Shown here in pieces: positions 33,150 to 40,853 of a stretch of 64,000 nt of DNA (positions are counted from its first letter, which is position 1; each line of letters begins with the position of its first letter). This DNA comes from Massilia sp. MS-15 (lineage in GTDB: Bacteria; Pseudomonadota; Gammaproteobacteria; Burkholderiales; Burkholderiaceae_D): positions 62,001 through 126,000 of the forward strand of contig NZ_JAIWIA010000018.1 of assembly GCF_020176695.1 (NCBI RefSeq), read 5' to 3'. The notes under the pieces are model-generated. The model was given only the letters and a program-made list of their open reading frames with translations. It made no database searches and was not told the DNA's origin. A program made the position numbers and the translations under genes.

Positions 33150-33587
33150 ATGGACAGTATCCGCCTCTCCACCCCCGACGACAGCGCCGCGCTGGCGGCG
33201 ATCTGGCGCGCCAGCGTGCGCGCGACCCACGATTTTCTGTCCGAACAGGATTTCCAGGACCTCGACCGCCTGGTGAGCCGCGACTACCTGCCGGCGACGG
33301 CGGTCTGGGTCGCCCTCGACGCCGCCGGCAGGCCGCAGGGCTTCCTGGGGCTGAGCGGCGCGCATGTGGATGCCCTGTTCATCGACCCTGCCTGCCGTGG
33401 CCAGGGGATCGGGCGCCGCCTCCTGGCGCACGCGGAGGCGCTGGCAGGTCGGCTCAGCGTCGACGTCAACGAACAGAACGCGGCGGCGCTCGGCTTCTAC
33501 CGGCACCTGGGCTTTCATGCCACCGGCCGCTCGCCACGCGACGATGCGGGCCGCCCCTATCCCTTGCTGCACCTGCGCCAGGCCTGA
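33150..33587 (+). CDS. YjaB-like GNAT N-acetyltransferase
   Basis: A 145-residue acetyltransferase. From memory it follows E. coli YjaB closely: AIWRASVRATHDFLS, VDALFIDPACRGQGIGRRLL with the acetyl-CoA loop RGQGIG, NEQNAAALGFYRHLGFHATGRS and GRPYPLLHL. YjaB binds acetyl-CoA and its physiological acceptor is unknown. ATG at 33150. The gene is divergent from the ZIP transporter and followed, 155 bp later, by a strong terminator. Confidence 0.87.
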   Translation: MDSIRLSTPDDSAALAAIWRASVRATHDFLSEQDFQDLDRLVSRDYLPATAVWVALDAAGRPQGFLGLSGAHVDALFIDPACRGQGIGRRLLAHAEALAGRLSVDVNEQNAAALGFYRHLGFHATGRSPRDDAGRPYPLLHLRQA

Positions 33588-33741
33588 GCGCAGCAAGACC
33601 CTTGCGTGGATGTGTCAACAAGTACATTCGAACAAATTGGGTTGCCTTCAGAATATTTTTAGTCCATCATAGCCGGGTGGCGCCAGTCTGCGACAGCCCG
33701 GCGCCCGATCAGCGATGAGGCGGTTGAGTCCGTTTCTTTAC
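33588..33741 (+). ncRNA. Possible small RNA or long 3' UTR ending at the 33742 terminator
   Basis: 154 bp of non-coding sequence between the acetyltransferase stop and a strong intrinsic terminator. An AT-rich, promoter-like stretch (about 33630-33670) is followed by a GC hairpin GCCGGG...CCCGGC (33672-33692) and the terminator. This suggests a short transcript of about 100 nt, but a long 3' UTR of the acetyltransferase is equally possible. I match it to no known RNA family. Confidence 0.3.
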
Positions 33742-33771
33742 GTCCCCCGCGTCATGCCGGGGGACTTTTTT
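33742..33771 (+). terminator. Strong intrinsic terminator
   Basis: 8-bp stem GTCCCCCG/CGGGGGAC with an 8-nt loop (33742-33765) followed by six T (33766-33771). It separates the acetyltransferase region from the operon that starts at 33875. Confidence 0.88.
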
Positions 33772-33874
33772 CGGTGCCGCGGCCATGCCCGCCGCGGCTG
33801 GCGCCACGCGGCGCCTGCCGGCCCACCGCCAGCCGCGCGCCCGGTGCGCCGGCGTGCGACCCACCGGAGGAAAC

Positions 33875-34960
33875 TTGAGCGAACCATTCCCCGATCTATC
33901 TTCCAGGACGACCGCAGTTTCAGACACACGCCGCCTCGTCTCCCTGCTGGCCGGTTCCACCCTGCTGGCCGCCGGCAGTCTGGTGCAGGCCGCGCCCGGG
34001 CCCGCGAAGTCCGCGCTGCCGGCAGTGGCCGACTTCCAGAAGCTGAGCGGCTCGCGTGCCGCGCGCTGCAGCGTCGCGCTCGAGCCCGCCCTGCGCAGCC
34101 TCGGTACGCCGGCCCTGCGCCAGTGCGCGTGGAGCGGACGGGTCGAGATGCTGTACTGGCAGGACATCGCCGACATCCCGCATAGCTGCCTGCCGACCGC
34201 CGCCATCGCCTGGCACCGTCTCGGCGCCGGCGCGCACGCGGTGCTGCGTCCGTGGAGCGGCAGCTGGAGCGGCCAGTCGCTGCAGCTGCAGTACAACGGC
34301 GTCGAGCATGCCGGCATGGTGTGGCGCCAGCCCGATGGCGGCTGGTCCGCCGTCCTGTGGCGCTGGCGGCCGTCCGAGCGGCTGGCCACCCGCAACTGGC
34401 AGCGTGGCCACTGGAAGGACGTGGCGGCCGCCGTGCGCGCGGTCGACGCGGCCAATCCGGCGCCGCCGCGCACGCCCCTGATGATGGCCTGGCTGGATGC
34501 GACCAATGGCAAGCCGCGCGCCATCGACGGCGATGCCTGGCGCTGGGTCAGCGCCGATGCCTGCCTGTCCCTCCAGACCGCCAGCCTCGGCCAGGCCCAG
34601 CTGCACCTGCCGCATTCGCGCGACGATGCCCGTCTGGAACAGCGCAGCGCGATGCAGGTCCAGCTGGCGCGCCGCTTCCCGCAGGCGCAATGGCTGCGGC
34701 CGTTCACCCTGGTCGAGCCGGCGATTTCCGGCGACCGCACTGGCGCCAAGTTCCTGGCGGTATGGCAGGAAGGCGCGGCGGTGCGGGGCCAGTTGTGGAT
34801 TCCGCTGCGCGACCAGGGCGGCATCGTGCGCGCCCGTATCTCCAGCGCGCTGCCCGCGGCCGGCGGCACGCGCGCGGCCGAGTCCGGCAAGGCGCGCGCG
34901 GCCCTGATCGAACGCGAGCTCGGTGCGCTTGCCCATGCCTGGGAGGCACGCCATGAGTGA
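33875..34960 (+). CDS. Exported Trp-rich protein of unknown function
   Basis: A 361-residue protein that I do not recognise. The start is TTG at 33875, fixed by a near-perfect ribosome site GGAGG 4 nt upstream. Residues about 17-37 (RRLVSLLAGSTLLAAGSLVQA) form a signal peptide or anchor. The mature part has paired Cys (AARCSVAL and LRQCAW, then HSCLPTA) and a Trp-rich region (WHRLGAGAHAVLRPWSGSWSG, AVLWRWRPSERLATRNW), then a basic helix-prone tail. Likely periplasmic. It overlaps the next gene by 8 nt, so its role is probably tied to the antiporter and ligase that follow. Confidence 0.75.
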   Translation: MSEPFPDLSSRTTAVSDTRRLVSLLAGSTLLAAGSLVQAAPGPAKSALPAVADFQKLSGSRAARCSVALEPALRSLGTPALRQCAWSGRVEMLYWQDIADIPHSCLPTAAIAWHRLGAGAHAVLRPWSGSWSGQSLQLQYNGVEHAGMVWRQPDGGWSAVLWRWRPSERLATRNWQRGHWKDVAAAVRAVDAANPAPPRTPLMMAWLDATNGKPRAIDGDAWRWVSADACLSLQTASLGQAQLHLPHSRDDARLEQRSAMQVQLARRFPQAQWLRPFTLVEPAISGDRTGAKFLAVWQEGAAVRGQLWIPLRDQGGIVRARISSALPAAGGTRAAESGKARAALIERELGALAHAWEARHE

Positions 34961-36185
34961 CGAACTGACCACGCCCCTGTGGCTGCTCTCGCCGCTGGCG
35001 GTCCTGGGCGCCGGCCTGATGCTGGCCCTGGTGGCGGGCATGCTGCTGCAGCGGCTGCGGATTCCGAAGCTGTACGGCGCGGTGCTGGCTGGGCTGCTGC
35101 TGGGCGCCACCGGCGCCGAGCTGATCGACCGTGCCTTGCTGGCCCAGTTCCAGGAACTGCTCAATGCCGCCGCGGCCCTGGTGCTGTTCGAAGTCGGACG
35201 CAAGATGGATCTGGCCTGGCTGCTGCGCAGCGGACGCCAGGGCGGCAGCCTGCTGCTGGCGACTTTCGCGCGCCTGGTGGCGGTGGCGCTCACGATTCGC
35301 CTGCTGGGCCTGCCCTGGGGTGCGGCCATCTTCATCGCCTCGATCCTGATCGCGGTGAACCCGGTGATCGTCAATTCGATGGTGGCCGACGAAAACGCCA
35401 GCGGCACCAGCACCTTCGCCACCGCCAACATGGTGGGCCTGAGCAGCCTGGTGGCCCTCCTGGTGCTGGCCCTGACCATGGCCTGGACCCGCAGCCAGGG
35501 GCTGGACGCCGGTACCAGCTTCGGCGAAGAGCTGATGCGCCAGGGCGGCAAGCTGGTGCTGGGCGCCGGCATTGCGCTGCTGTCCTATGGCCTGTACGCG
35601 GCCGCCACCCGGCTGTGCAAGGTGCCGGCCACGCTGCGTCCCGGCATGCTGCTGGCGGCGCTGCTGATCGACCTCGGCCTGTGCTCGATCTCGTCCTCGA
35701 GCGCGCTGCTGTCCCTGTTGCTGATGGGCCTGCTGCTGCGCAACGTCGAGCGCCGCGACAACGTGTTCCAGGCCCAGCTCAAGACCGCGCAGGACATCGG
35801 CTACGTGCTGCTGTTCCTGATGTCGGCGGCCCTGGTCGACCTGCAGGGGCTGGCGCAGGGCTGGACGCTGCTCGGCGCGCTGGCCGTGTTCGCGGTGCGT
35901 ATCGGCGCCACCCGCCTGGCCCTGTGGCCGGGCAGCGCCTGGGACCGCAACAAGAAGCATGCGATGGCGCTCTCCATGTGCTCGCTGGTGAGCTACGGCG
36001 GGCTGGTGGTCGACACCACCCTCAATGCCTACACCGGCCTGGACCAGGCCTCCACCGAACTGATGGGCGCGCTACTGGCCCTGAACGTGCTGCTCGCCCC
36101 GGGCCTGACCTGGCTCGGCCTGCGCATGGCGGGCGAAACCTACCGCCCGCTGGGCGAATCGAGGAAGGACGGGGTGCATCCATGA
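34953..36185 (+). CDS. Cation/proton antiporter, CPA2 (KefB/KefC-like) membrane domain
   Basis: A 410-residue integral membrane protein with 11-13 hydrophobic segments and the Na+/H+ exchanger fold: [59 protein letters not shown] and [20 protein letters not shown]. It has no C-terminal RCK/TrkA-N domain, unlike full KefB/KefC. Potassium or sodium export against protons is likely. ATG at 34953 overlaps the upstream gene by 8 nt, and the stop overlaps the downstream ligase as ATGA, so the three genes are one coupled operon. Confidence 0.83.
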
Positions 36186-37399
36186 GCGAGATCCTGATCA
36201 ACGACGAGGCCGCGCGCCGCCTGCTGGAAGCGCAGGCCCAGGCGGTATCGGGCAAGGGGCCGGCATTCCTGCCCGACTTCACGCCTTCGACCGTGGGCAC
36301 CATGGGCATCGAGCTGGAGCTGATGGTGCTCGACCGCCTCACCTACGACCTGTTCCCCGCCGCGCCCGACATCCTGCGCGTACTCGACAAGCAGGACAAG
36401 CCCTGGGTGCACACGCCCGAGATCACCACCTCGATGCTGGAAGTGGCGACCTCGATCCTGGGCTCCTTCGGCGAGGCCGAGGAGCAGCTGGAGCATATCC
36501 GCGCGACCGTGCAGCGCGCCGCCTTCGACGTGGGCGCCTCGGTCTCCGGCGGCGGCGCCCATCCGTTCCAGCGCTGGAACGAGCAGCGCATCTACCCGAA
36601 GGAGCGCTACTTCGAGTCGGAGCGCAAGTACGGCTACCTGGCCAAGCTGTTTACCGTGTTCGGCATGCATGTGCACATCGGCGCCGGCAGCGCCGACGAA
36701 GCGATCCGCCTGTGCGCCTGGCTCACCCAGCGCGCGCCGCTGTTCATCGCGCTGTCCGCGAATTCCGTGTGCTGGCAGGGCGAGGTATCGGGGTTTTGCA
36801 GTTCGCGCAGCAACGTGGTGGGCGCCTTCCCGATGAGCGGCATCCAGCCGCACGACTTCCGCAGCTGGCAGGACTTCCGCGACTATTTCGACCGGCTGGC
36901 CGGCTTTGGCATCGTCAACAGCATCAAGGATTTCTACTGGGACGTGCGGCCCAAGCCCGAGTACGGCACCATCGAGCTGCGCGTGCTCGACACCCCGCTC
37001 AAGCCGGTGTACGCGGCCGCGCTGGCCTGCTATGCGCGCGAGCTGTGCCTGGAATTCGCCGACCAGGCCGGCGCCTGGCCGACCAACGGCAGCCGCGAGC
37101 TGTACACCTGGAACCGTTTCAACGCTGCGCGCGACGGCGTCGTTGCCGTGTACATCGATCCGGAAACCGGCGCCTCGACGCCGGTGGCCGAAGTCATCCG
37201 CGCCGACCTGGAACGCCTGGGCCGGCGCTCCAGCGATCCGGGCTTCGCGCGGGCGCGCGAGGTGATTGGCGACCTGATGCGCGATGGCGGCCAGGCCGGC
37301 CTGTTGCGGCGCCACCTGGCGGCTGGCGGCGGCATGAATGACCTGGCCCGGGTCGCCAGCGAGATCTTCGAGGCCAGGCCCGCGCCAGCGCGCGCCTGA
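36182..37399 (+). CDS. YbdK-type carboxylate-amine ligase (GCS2 family)
   Basis: ATP-dependent ligase of the glutamate-cysteine ligase 2 family, 405 residues. Motifs: TMGIELELMVLD near residue 40, PEITTSMLEVAT, SGGGAHPFQRW, KLFTVFGMHVHIGAG, CSSRSNVVGAFPMSG and TIELRVLDTPL. E. coli YbdK has weak gamma-glutamylcysteine synthetase activity, so a thiol or gamma-glutamyl product is likely but the true substrate is open. ATG at 36182 overlaps the antiporter stop. KefB/KefC-type potassium exporters are gated by glutathione adducts, which makes the pairing with an antiporter suggestive. Confidence 0.88.
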   Translation: MSEILINDEAARRLLEAQAQAVSGKGPAFLPDFTPSTVGTMGIELELMVLDRLTYDLFPAAPDILRVLDKQDKPWVHTPEITTSMLEVATSILGSFGEAEEQLEHIRATVQRAAFDVGASVSGGGAHPFQRWNEQRIYPKERYFESERKYGYLAKLFTVFGMHVHIGAGSADEAIRLCAWLTQRAPLFIALSANSVCWQGEVSGFCSSRSNVVGAFPMSGIQPHDFRSWQDFRDYFDRLAGFGIVNSIKDFYWDVRPKPEYGTIELRVLDTPLKPVYAAALACYARELCLEFADQAGAWPTNGSRELYTWNRFNAARDGVVAVYIDPETGASTPVAEVIRADLERLGRRSSDPGFARAREVIGDLMRDGGQAGLLRRHLAAGGGMNDLARVASEIFEARPAPARA

Positions 37400-37412
37400 C
37401 GCGGCCGGCCGG

Positions 37413-37940
37413 CTACAGCTGGGCCAGCGGCAGGCTGCCGGCCGCCTCGTCCACGCCCAGCTGGGCGATCAGGCGGTCGAGGTTACGCTCCAGCTGCAGC
37501 AGGGTTTCCAGGTCGAGGCTGGCGAGGGCGTCCGGCAGCACGCCGGCGAAGGGCAGCGGCGCGCGCCGCAGGATGTCGGTGCCCGCCGGCAGCACCTGCA
37601 GCGCCACGTTGCGCCGGTCGGTGCCCGCCCGGCTGCCGCTCACATAGCCGCGCTCGACCAGGGCGCGCACCAGGTTGCTGGCGGTGGACTGGTGGATATC
37701 GAGCTCGCGCGCCAGTCCGGTTGCGCCGATGCCGGGATGGCGCTCGATCACCGACAGCGCCCACAGCTGGGCGCCGCCGAGTCCTGCTTCGCGCTCGACC
37801 TGGCGGAAATGGGTCTTGACGGCATTGAACACGATGCGGAACTGGCGCAGTACGCGCATCGGACGATCGTCGGCGATGGCGGGCGCTGCGGGACCGGTGG
37901 AAAGCGCGGGAGTGGCGCTGGGGTCGGGGGTGGCGGACAT
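37413..37940 (-). CDS. MarR-family transcriptional regulator
   Basis: A 175-residue winged-helix regulator. After a Pro/Ala/Ser-rich head of about 25 residues come the dimerisation helix (RVLRQFRIVFNAVKTHFRQVE) and the wHTH (GIGATGLARELDIHQSTASNL, VRALVERGYVSGSRAGTDRRN). The C-terminal helix is ELERN/LDRL-like. ATG at 37940. It converges with the ligase operon, 13 bp apart, and is divergent from a GGDEF/EAL gene 102 bp away; a regulatory link to either is open. Confidence 0.87.
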   Translation of the reverse strand: MSATPDPSATPALSTGPAAPAIADDRPMRVLRQFRIVFNAVKTHFRQVEREAGLGGAQLWALSVIERHPGIGATGLARELDIHQSTASNLVRALVERGYVSGSRAGTDRRNVALQVLPAGTDILRRAPLPFAGVLPDALASLDLETLLQLERNLDRLIAQLGVDEAAGSLPLAQL

Positions 37941-38042
37941 GGCGAGATCATAGCGGAAATCCGGCCCCGGCGGGCGCCGGCCCCGTCCTTTGCGCCGCCG
38001 AAACGTGGCGCGGCGGCGGCGGCCTTTTGCTAGGATGACCGC

Positions 38043-40853
38043 ATGAAACGCCTGCTCGCCCATCCGCTGTTCCAGCGGTGGCGCGTGGTGTCGCGCGCCG
38101 CTGTCGCGACTTCCCTGGCCGGGTTCGCGCTGACCGCAATCCTGTTCGGCGTGGCGCGCCAGTTGGAGGGGGAAGGCGCGCGCGCCGAGTTCGAACAGCG
38201 CACGGCGGTGCGCATGGCAGCGGTCACGCGGGCGTTCGACGACGCGCTGCGCGACCTGCGCGCGCTGAACCTGCTGTTCGCGGCCAGCGGCGGTGCGATC
38301 ACGCGCGCAAGTTTCGATGCCTTCGCCCGCCCGCTGGCGGCGCGCAATGCCTATCTGCTGGCGCTCGAGTACCAGCGATTCATCACGCATGCCGAGCGGC
38401 CCGCCTTCGAGGCCGCGCGGCGCCGCCTGTGGCCGGACTACGCGGTGCGCGAACGGCTGCCTTCGGGCGCCCTGGCCAGGGCCGGCGTGCGGGCGCGCTA
38501 CCTGGTCACCGATTACGTGGCGCCGATCTCCGGCAATGGCGACGCGTTCGGCTACGACGCCTGGTCCGGCGCCGAAGAGCGCGCCACGACCGAGCGCGCG
38601 ATCGACAGCGGCGCGCCGACCGCCACCCCGGTCCTGCGCCTGCTCCAGGGTGAAGGCGCGCTGCGCGGGGTGCTCCTGATCATGCCGGTCTACCGTGCCG
38701 GCGCCGTGCCGGCGGAAGTACGCGCGCGCCGCGCCGCCGCCCTCGGCACGACCCTGGCCGTGCTGGATGCGGGCATGCTGGTCGGCACCAGCCTGGAGGA
38801 TGCGCGCCTGCTGTCCGGCGGCGATGGGCTGGTGCTGCACGGACGCGACATTCGGGGCGCGCGGGTGCCCGTGTTCAGCCACCCGGCTTCGCAGCCCAGG
38901 CTGGCGCCCTGGGAGCGCTGGCTGGGCGGGGGCGCGGACACGCTCACGCGCAGCTTCGAGGTCGGCGGCGTGCGCTGGGAGCTGACCGCGCTGCGTCCGC
39001 CGCGGACGCTGGACAGCCAGGTCGGCTCGCTGTCGATCCTCGGCTACGGCTGCGTGCTGACACTGGCGGCGGCCGCCCTGGTGCAGCAGCGCAGCGTGCG
39101 CACCCGCCGCATCGAATCCCTGGTCGAGCGCCGCAGCGCCGACCTGGCCCGGGCCGCCGGCGCGCTGCGCCTGCACCAGCGCGCGATCGAGTCGGCCGCC
39201 AACCCGATCCTCCTGATCAGCGCCACGCGCCCCGGCTACCCGATCGAATACGCCAACCCGGCCTGCGAACGCCTCCTGGGCTACGGGCCCGGCGAACTGC
39301 TCGGCAGGCCGCTGGCGGTGCTGGCGCGCCCCGGCAGCGACGAGCCGGGACTGGAAGAATTGCGCCAGGCATTGCACGCATGCCGCAAGGGCCACGCCCT
39401 GGTGCGCCAGGCCACCCGCGACGAGCGCGAGCTGGTCAGCGAGGTGTACATCGCCCCGGTCAATAACGAGCATGGCCTCACCGAGCATTTCGTGGTCACC
39501 ACCTACGACGTCACGGTGGCCAAGCGCTACGAGGCGGAACTGGCGCACCAGGCGCGCTACGACACCCTGACCGGACTGGCCAACCGCGCGCTGCTGGCCG
39601 ACCGCATCGAGCGCGCCATCGCGGCCGCCGGCAGCCTGCCGGTGTGGGCGGTGGCGCTCGACATCGACCATTTCAAGCTGGTCAACGATACGCTCGGCCG
39701 CCGTCTCGGCGACGAAGCCCTGCGCGCCCTGGCCACCCGCATCGCCGCCGCACTGCGCCAGACCGACACCGCGGCGCGCGCCGGCGGCGACGACTTCATG
39801 CTGGTGCTGACCGGCTGCAGCGACGAGCGCCAGGCGGCGGCCCGGCTGCAGGCCGTGCGCGAGGCCATCGCCGAACCGCTGCAGGTCGACGGCCACACCC
39901 TGGTGTTCGGTTCCAGCGCCGGCGTGGCCGGCTATCCGGCGGACGGGCGGGATCCGGAAACCCTGGTCAAGCATGCCGAAGTCGCCATGTACCGCGCCAA
40001 GCAGACCGGCCGCAACGCGGTCCAGTTCTATGCGCCCCACATGAACGCCCACGCCACCGACCGCCTGGCGCTGGAGGGGGCGCTGCGCGGGGCGCTGCGC
40101 GAGGACCAGTTCGTGCTGCACTTCCAGCCGCAGGTGGAACTCGGCAGCGGGCGGGTGGTGGGGACCGAGGCCCTGATCCGCTGGCGCCACCCGCAGTTCG
40201 GCACCGTGCGCCCGGAACGCTTCATCGCGCTGGCCGAGGAGACCGGCCTGATCGTCCCGATCGGCGCCTGGGTCCTGCGCGCCGCCTGCCGCCAGAACGT
40301 CGACTGGCAGCGCGCGGGACTGGGGCGGCTGCGAATCGGCGTCAACCTGTCGGCACGCCAGTTTTCGGAACCCGACCTGGTGCAGACGGTGCGCCAGGTG
40401 CTGGACGAGACCGGGCTGCCGCCCGACTCGCTCGAGATCGAGCTGACCGAAAGCATGATGATGGCCGACGTCGAGGCCGCGATCGAGACCATGCGCTGCC
40501 TGAAGGCGATGGGCGTGAAGCTGTCGATCGACGATTTCGGCACCGGCTACTCGAGCCTGTCCTACCTGAGGCGCCTGCCCGTCGACGTGCTCAAGATCGA
40601 CCGCTGCTTCGTGCGCGACATCGCGGGCAGCGCCGATGGCGCGGCCATGGTCGGCGCCATCATTTCGCTCGCCCATGGCCTGCGCATGCAGGTGATCGCC
40701 GAAGGCGTCGAAACCCTGGCCCAGCTCGACTACCTGCGCGGCTGCGGCTGCGACGAGGTCCAGGGCCACATCTTCAGCCGTCCGGAACCGGTGCACGCGG
40801 TCGAGCGCCTGCTGCGCCTGGGCAGGGTCGAGCCCAGTGGGCTGCAGGCCTGA
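38043..40853 (+). CDS. CHASE-PAS-GGDEF-EAL cyclic-di-GMP protein
   Basis: A 936-residue membrane signalling protein. Order: membrane helix (about 20-40), periplasmic CHASE domain (RAFDDALRDLRALNLLFAASG through about 290), second helix (ILGYGCVLTLAAAALVQQ), PAS (IESAANPILLISA ... YDVTVAKRYE), GGDEF and EAL. The cyclase signature reads RAGGDDFML, i.e. GGDDF instead of GG[DE]EF, so cyclase activity is doubtful. The EAL domain is intact: TEALIRW, ELTESMMMA, DDFGTGYSSL, KIDRCFV, EGVE. The net effect is probably phosphodiesterase activity, controlled from the periplasm by an unknown ligand. Confidence 0.92.
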   Translation: MKRLLAHPLFQRWRVVSRAAVATSLAGFALTAILFGVARQLEGEGARAEFEQRTAVRMAAVTRAFDDALRDLRALNLLFAASGGAITRASFDAFARPLAARNAYLLALEYQRFITHAERPAFEAARRRLWPDYAVRERLPSGALARAGVRARYLVTDYVAPISGNGDAFGYDAWSGAEERATTERAIDSGAPTATPVLRLLQGEGALRGVLLIMPVYRAGAVPAEVRARRAAALGTTLAVLDAGMLVGTSLEDARLLSGGDGLVLHGRDIRGARVPVFSHPASQPRLAPWERWLGGGADTLTRSFEVGGVRWELTALRPPRTLDSQVGSLSILGYGCVLTLAAAALVQQRSVRTRRIESLVERRSADLARAAGALRLHQRAIESAANPILLISATRPGYPIEYANPACERLLGYGPGELLGRPLAVLARPGSDEPGLEELRQALHACRKGHALVRQATRDERELVSEVYIAPVNNEHGLTEHFVVTTYDVTVAKRYEAELAHQARYDTLTGLANRALLADRIERAIAAAGSLPVWAVALDIDHFKLVNDTLGRRLGDEALRALATRIAAALRQTDTAARAGGDDFMLVLTGCSDERQAAARLQAVREAIAEPLQVDGHTLVFGSSAGVAGYPADGRDPETLVKHAEVAMYRAKQTGRNAVQFYAPHMNAHATDRLALEGALRGALREDQFVLHFQPQVELGSGRVVGTEALIRWRHPQFGTVRPERFIALAEETGLIVPIGAWVLRAACRQNVDWQRAGLGRLRIGVNLSARQFSEPDLVQTVRQVLDETGLPPDSLEIELTESMMMADVEAAIETMRCLKAMGVKLSIDDFGTGYSSLSYLRRLPVDVLKIDRCFVRDIAGSADGAAMVGAIISLAHGLRMQVIAEGVETLAQLDYLRGCGCDEVQGHIFSRPEPVHAVERLLRLGRVEPSGLQA

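Follow-up and report, generated by a model that had tools for sequence, protein, structure and literature searches.

A 64,000-nucleotide (nt) stretch of the genome of Massilia sp. MS-15 (contig NZ_JAIWIA010000018.1, positions 62,001 to 126,000; here called the window) contains three genes that overlap in series on the + strand and encode an exported, Trp-rich protein (open reading frame 1 [ORF1]), a membrane protein with the fold of a cation/proton antiporter (CPA; ORF2), and a YbdK-type carboxylate-amine ligase (ORF3). The strongest new fact is that, in the sequence alignment, the antiporter aspartates are lost in all 70 sampled proteins encoded beside YbdK-type ligases or ORF1, and this loss points to a changed function of ORF2 that is tied to the ligase. 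We tentatively favor a reading, short of probable but well above unlikely, in which ORF2 works with ORF3 as a two-part module, ORF2 being a repurposed antiporter fold that serves the ligase and ORF1 a clade-specific periplasmic accessory. The genes and their overlaps are as follows.

33875..34960, + strand: ORF1, exported Trp-rich protein; 361 amino acids (aa), TTG start, predicted alpha/beta protein with four invariant Cys
34953..36185, + strand: ORF2, CPA-fold membrane protein (PF00999); 410 aa, ATG start, no RCK domain, S164-S165, E80 and R263
36182..37399, + strand: ORF3, YbdK-type carboxylate-amine ligase; 405 aa, ATG start, GCS2 and TIGR02050
34953..34960, + strand: overlap of ORF1 and ORF2, 8 nt
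36182..36185, + strand: overlap of ORF2 and ORF3, 4 nt (ATGA)

ORF2 passes the Pfam Na_H_Exchanger model PF00999 (76.1 bits versus a cut-off of 26.2) and falls below the NCBIfam CPA2 model TIGR00932 (20.8 bits versus a cut-off of 238.3). Its predicted structure (predicted local distance difference test [pLDDT] score of 79.7) has a complete antiporter fold and superimposes on NapA, SOS1, and NhaP with Z scores of 31 to 34 over 370 to 395 residues: for NapA (5bz2), Z was 31.1 with a root mean square deviation (rmsd) of 4.0 and 370 aligned residues, and for SOS1 (7y3e), Z was 34.2 with an rmsd of 4.5 and 395 aligned residues. The model of ORF2 has the same full-length fold as the NapA, NhaP, and NHA2 antiporters. 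No TrkA/RCK domain, nor any Pfam domain besides PF00999, was found in ORF2.

The aspartates of the antiporter site are not retained. According to a passage in PMC6181914, an aspartate at motif position 7 is present in 94% of CPAs, and part of the text of PMC9408914 describes this residue as indispensable in virtually all exchangers investigated. We aligned 96 sequences with MAFFT: 36 distinct ORF2 proteins from loci with ORF1 (trio loci, including two whose contigs stop short of the ligase), 34 from loci with a ligase neighbor only (pair loci), 23 unpaired class-level matches, and the three Kef proteins of the source genome. The register of the motif is supported by an alignment to PDB sequences, in which the Asp-Asp of an unpaired relative aligns with the Asn-Asp of MjNhaP1. 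Asp, which binds the ion at this site in KefC, NapA, and NhaA, was found at position 7 in none of the 70 distinct proteins beside ORF1 or a ligase. Positions 6 and 7 are S164 and S165 in the window, SN (22), SS (9), or GN (5) among the 36 trio proteins, and NC (13), GN (9), NN (7), NS (2), DC, NA, or SA (1 each) among the 34 pair proteins. The short, unpaired CPA2 relatives, in contrast, retain Asp-Asp in 23 of 23 cases, and the Kef proteins have QD (two) or ED (one). As all 23 unpaired matches are of the Asp-Asp type, no solitary aspartate-less CPA protein was seen, other than at contig ends (L104/L152 and L108/L159).

Two further residues mark the paired group. Position 80, which lies in a predicted helix, is acidic in 36/36 trio proteins and 29/34 pair proteins but in only 1/23 unpaired relatives, and position 263 is R or K in 36/36, 34/34, and 4/23, respectively. 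R316 is kept in 69 of the 70 paired proteins, with one gap, and is shared by the unpaired relatives. E80 might be a partner of R316, or it could take up a proton.

The association of ORF2 with its neighbors is conserved. ORF1 matches occurred in 23 of 245 genomes of the family, or 22 once a weak match in G118 (E value, 3.4e-4) is set aside, and a close ORF2 (≥55% identity) was found in exactly these 22 genomes. A scan of named genomes, several of which are also in the family set, gave 32 ORF1 loci, from 27 Massilia genomes (one of them an uncultured metagenome-assembled genome [MAG]), one Telluria genome, and four MAGs labelled Janthinobacterium (one), Oxalobacteraceae (two), and Legionellaceae (one). 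ORF2 was directly behind ORF1 in all 32 of these loci and ORF3 came next in 30, the contigs of the other two ending there; across the ORF1 loci read, ORF2 adjoined ORF1 in 53 of 53. The contig labelled Legionellaceae (L157) carries a complete ORF1-ORF2-ORF3 trio, which implies either that the genes were transferred or that the contig bears the wrong label.

The ORF2-ORF3 pair predates the trio and is also more frequent. An ORF3-type ligase was found in 173 of the 245 family genomes (E value, 1e-10), and in 83 loci (49 trio and 34 pair) ORF2 and the ligase were on one strand with ≤180 nt between match ends, a count that refers to loci read by profile rather than to all genomes and in which several genomes were fetched twice. 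The first pair loci had been chosen because both matches lay together; ten further loci (L180 to L189), chosen from ligase matches without an ORF2 match, had a CPA neighbor by profile in 10 of 10. The source genome itself has a second ORF2-ORF3 pair, on contig 38, without ORF1. In a class-wide sample of 274 genomes, the ORF2 profile matched 26 and the ligase profile 15; both matched in five genomes besides the source, and the two genes were adjacent in four of these (G351, G358, G359, and G468) and on different contigs in G458. Pairwise distances of ORF2 and the ligase were correlated over 56 loci, including paralogues (r=0.965, a value that includes species relatedness; maximum of 500 permutations, 0.121), and the two trees look alike. 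The initial annotation of the window had grouped all three genes as one system; this held for ORF1, which, the weak match in G118 aside, occurred with ORF2 in every ORF1 locus read and every family genome with ORF1, but the pair without ORF1 proved to be far commoner. Apparent antiporter-ligase fusions (long frames in L121 and L132) were rejected as artefacts of alignments that ran through a stop codon.

ORF3 contains the Pfam domain GCS2 and passes the YbdK family model TIGR02050 (254.1 bits versus a cut-off of 176.4), in agreement with its initial assignment as a YbdK-type ligase, and its residues 30 to 395 align with Escherichia coli YbdK (1r8g; E value, 1.1e-63). E44, E46, E80, E87, H163, H165, E265, and R267 of ORF3 are invariant in 14 aligned sequences and are putative active-site residues of the fold. 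ORF3 differs from E. coli YbdK and other TIGR02050 ligases in having a CPA-fold neighbor and in scoring below the narrower equivalog model NF010040 (361.3 bits versus a cut-off of 425). We know of no established true substrate for YbdK-type ligases.

The gene overlaps were exactly as first annotated and suggest that the three products are made jointly. ORF1 and ORF2 likewise overlap, by 8 or 11 nt, in all but one of 20 other loci measured (19 of 20), more often than chance would give; the remaining locus (L102) has a 10-nt gap under the start chosen. The ORF2/ORF3 junction is less constant, its extremes among the trio loci measured being a gap of 9 nt and an overlap of 23 nt. ORF1 begins with TTG, preceded by GGAGGAAA at 33866.

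ORF1 was initially described as exported, Cys bearing, and unrecognized, and each of these features was borne out. Neither Pfam nor NCBIfam gave a match to it at E values of up to 1, and four cysteines (C65, C84, C105, and C230) and twelve Trp residues are invariant in 20 aligned sequences. By an ad hoc measure (mean Kyte-Doolittle value of ∼1.9 or more over 12 residues), 19 of 20 ORF1 proteins have a strongly hydrophobic N-terminal stretch; the value was 1.0 for the protein of L108, the start of which is uncertain. ORF1 of the window lacks a lipobox, as there is no Cys within its first 60 residues. The predicted structure (pLDDT of 85.9, with residues 1 to 41 below 50) provides a lead, in that ORF1 may be an alpha/beta protein with a C-terminal half resembling Mog1/PsbP/DcrB folds. 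The C-terminal half aligned with Mog1 (1jhs; Z of 9.0, rmsd of 3.4, 133 residues) and DcrB (6e8a; Z of 7.8, rmsd of 4.2, 108 residues) and the N-terminal part aligned with PsbP (4rth; Z of 7.1, rmsd of 4.4, 115 residues) and periplasmic PA1624 (6td9; Z of 6.0, rmsd of 4.0, 101 residues), although Z values near 8 can reflect merely a common arrangement. Foldseek returned Mog1 (1eq6; E value, 5.8e-3; probability, 1.00) and SciW (E value, 4.4e-3). Compared with Mog1/PsbP/DcrB-like proteins, ORF1 has no sequence match and is distinguished by its four invariant Cys and many Trp residues.

Other leads for ORF1 were rejected. The top Foldseek row (4xrt, ARO/CYC; E value, 9.9e-5) was disbelieved, as its rmsd was 16.7 and its TM-scores were no higher than 0.17 and 0.19. 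Matches to orange carotenoid protein (best E value, 5.5e-4) and matches of the ORF1 profile to snaclecs (E value, 5e-3) were attributed to chance resemblance in composition, because the former were absent from the profile search and neither was listed in the fold-search rows shown. An internal duplication detectable by sequence was also discarded, the two halves being dissimilar by profile comparison.

A conserved structured RNA lies in front of the operon, and a convergent regulator gene lies behind it.

33642..33670, + strand: promoter-like TTGCCT-17 nt-CATCAT, conserved in related loci (by eye)
33673..33773, + strand: conserved structured RNA of ∼95 nt, with hairpins P1 and P2 joined by linker CGATCAGCGAT and followed by a terminator-like hairpin
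37413..37940, − strand: MarR-family regulator, convergent; a MarR gene is also found behind the RNA at sites without the operon

The linker between P1 and P2, GATCAGCGATGAGG, is almost invariant across loci, and the terminator-like hairpin (33742 to 33765) ends with T6. In an alignment of 15 RNA sequences, 88.9% of cells are paired and both sides have changed in 11 of 23 pairs, a level reached by 1 of 500 shuffles. The covariation score (0.288 versus a shuffled mean of 0.148) was reached by none of 500 shuffles. Slid controls gave lower values, but these results are partly expected, as the structure was derived from the same alignment. Alignment A6 did not include L133 (G193), L227, or L228. 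Single-sequence tests were weaker: the fold of the region from 33676 to 33872 is only moderately better than those of shuffled sequences (z, −1.67), and the two terminator-like sites in the scan were not above the shuffle level (mean, 1.6). A sigma-70 consensus scan of 33400 to 38200 gave no match, which counts against the promoter-like element. Comparison with Rfam gave scores below the gathering threshold for anti-hemB (RF02837; 15.7, 23.6, and 23.3 bits versus 49.5) and below the threshold for ncS54 (25.5 bits versus 43), and five other RNA loci had no Rfam match at an E value of 0.5. The RNA is a candidate for a new small RNA (sRNA) or leader family, supported by covariation.

A first, longer RNA model matched 15 of the 245 family genomes, 14 of them within the genus, whereas a model of the core matched 56 of 62 genus genomes. 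One first-model match, in G089 (L227), was dropped, as it lies inside a coding region, apparently of a gene for an exported protein. The main core match of each genome was read with ∼1.5 kb on each side, and six secondary matches were left out. Behind the 56 main matches we found the trio at 11, the ORF2-ORF3 pair at 23, a ligase without ORF2 at two, and neither ORF2 nor ligase at 20. One of the two ligase-only sites is L270; at the other (L287), which is the site of the window in G193, a close copy of the ligase, shortened to 302 aa (L133, 6666 to 7571), stands close behind the RNA. This genome has no ORF1 and no close ORF2 match, so the shortened ligase speaks for the two-part module. All 20 sites without ORF2 or ligase (L242, L243, L251, L254, L258, L260, L268, L271, L272, and L276 to L286) have the convergent MarR gene. 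Four of them (L242, L243, L251, and L254) also have the ZIP-like gene that flanks the window's operon and so seem to be empty versions of the window's site. Some genomes with an operon-less RNA hold the trio or a ligase elsewhere (e.g., G126, G113, G204, and G239).

A role of the RNA purely as an mRNA leader is weakened by the 20 of 56 main matches without ORF2 or ligase and by the lack of an RNA match at the second pair of the source genome. Since the RNA stays recognizable where the operon is absent, an independent sRNA gene appears more likely than a simple leader, and the operon may perhaps be controlled by read-through of the terminator. A leader peptide starting at ATG 33715 was rejected, as start, frame, and length vary: by eye, its counterparts have GTG (L139), GCG (L099), a 4-nt insertion (L146), or an early stop (L135).

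We propose the following. ORF3 would couple an amine to an amino acid; the latter is probably glutamate, reacting through the gamma-carboxylate. ORF2 would descend from a short CPA2 antiporter whose cation/proton site is gone and would most likely move the product or substrate of the ligase across the inner membrane, in one direction or the other, or sense it, possibly in physical contact with ORF3. ORF1 would have been added in one clade, made by translational coupling, and, once exported, would probably act on the periplasmic side of ORF2. Gene layout, conserved pairing, aspartate loss, the ligase family signature, and the RNA in front are computational findings; the reaction, the cargo and its direction, physical contact, and the part played by ORF1 are what we infer.

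The initial annotation had instead suggested an electrophile or ion stress system, with the ligase making a thiol of the kind that gates Kef channels. ORF2 shares with KefB and KefC a CPA2-type membrane domain, and KefC (8bxg and 9emb) is among its Foldseek matches, but the RCK domain and the equivalent of KefC D156 are both missing, the latter as in all 70 kin, and within the sample ORF2 is closer to the short Asp-Asp CPA2 proteins than to KefC. In part of the text of PMC11150392, K+ density is reported as not seen in KefC D156N. In addition, the source genome (4.5 Mb in 108 contigs) encodes three ordinary Kef proteins (P0004 to P0006) with the RCK (TrkA_N) domain, and glutathione has dedicated genes there, as gshA (TIGR02049; 606 bits) adjoins gshB (GSH-S_ATP) on contig 31. 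Defense against electrophiles of the Kef type was consequently abandoned as the best reading. A modified form of the idea, in which the product of the ligase gates an ORF2 that still exchanges cations for protons through a rebuilt site (E80 with R316/R321), seems unlikely: the CPA fold spans the whole of ORF2 in the NapA and SOS1 comparisons and E80, in a predicted helix, is an acid conserved specifically in the paired group, but position 7 lacks Asp in 70/70 proteins, ORF2 has neither RCK nor any further Pfam domain beyond PF00999, and E80 may do no more than pair with R316.

Alternatively, ORF2 might transport nothing and serve the ligase as an anchor, assembly partner, or receptor that reports on the envelope, ORF1 being its periplasmic sensor. 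The neutral residues at the antiporter site, the ORF2-ligase pairing, the exported ORF1 with a gene overlapping that of ORF2, and a histidine kinase that lies downstream in six of the 20 clustered trio loci are consistent with such a role, but a transport fold with conserved core residues (R316 among them) and the lack of any cytoplasmic domain able to hold a ligase argue against it, and we consider it a minor possibility. That the three genes have no joint function and are simply neighbors at a variable site that follows the RNA gene is very improbable. In favor of this reading, the trio, the pair, or neither is found behind the RNA, depending on the genome; against it, ORF2 and the ligase are paired elsewhere in genomes and in further families of the class, the overlap of ORF1 with ORF2 is conserved, and ORF1 was never seen without its type of ORF2, the weak G118 match aside.

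Several observations weigh against the two-part module that we favor. Nine of the 15 ligase-positive class genomes have no ORF2-profile match (E value, 1e-20). Loci were read for two of these, G285 and G426, which have strong ligase matches; neither has an ORF2-type neighbor, and the ligase can therefore occur by itself. Matches in the remaining seven genomes are weak (127 to 193 bits). L270 has an open GCS2 ligase (1759 to 2880) directly behind the RNA and no ORF2 in the stretch read. E. coli ybdK is presumably unpaired as well. Co-inherited neighbors would likewise yield a high correlation of distances, and loss of the aspartate does not prove loss of cation transport, as E80 could carry the charge.

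YbdK-type ligases are widespread, and a regular membrane partner without an antiporter site provides a handle on their substrate through the cargo of the partner. It also calls for caution, as genes annotated as sodium:proton exchangers beside YbdK may not encode exchangers. A more specific proposal, that this antiporter-fold subfamily has abandoned cation/proton exchange and is a dedicated carrier of the YbdK-type ligase product, so that the ligase family gains a membrane function, and that in Massilia an exported partner was added and the operon stands behind a new family of structured sRNA that possibly controls it by terminator read-through, is unlikely. We found no paper on a YbdK ligase/antiporter pair, as judged by titles or the opening lines of abstracts.

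Two features of related loci may be added. The histidine-kinase cluster occurs downstream of the trio in L106, L109 to L112, and L114 and also near four pair loci (L130, L131, L132, and L134); Pfam confirms the kinase in L106, L109, and L112 and a response regulator in the first and last of these, and immediately after the trio of L112 (9761 to 12728) are genes for a response regulator, a histidine kinase, and a D-Ala-D-Ala carboxypeptidase-type protein. L228 (4727 to 7003), from G223, has a further ORF2-ligase pair behind the RNA, in which the ligase is split over two frames.

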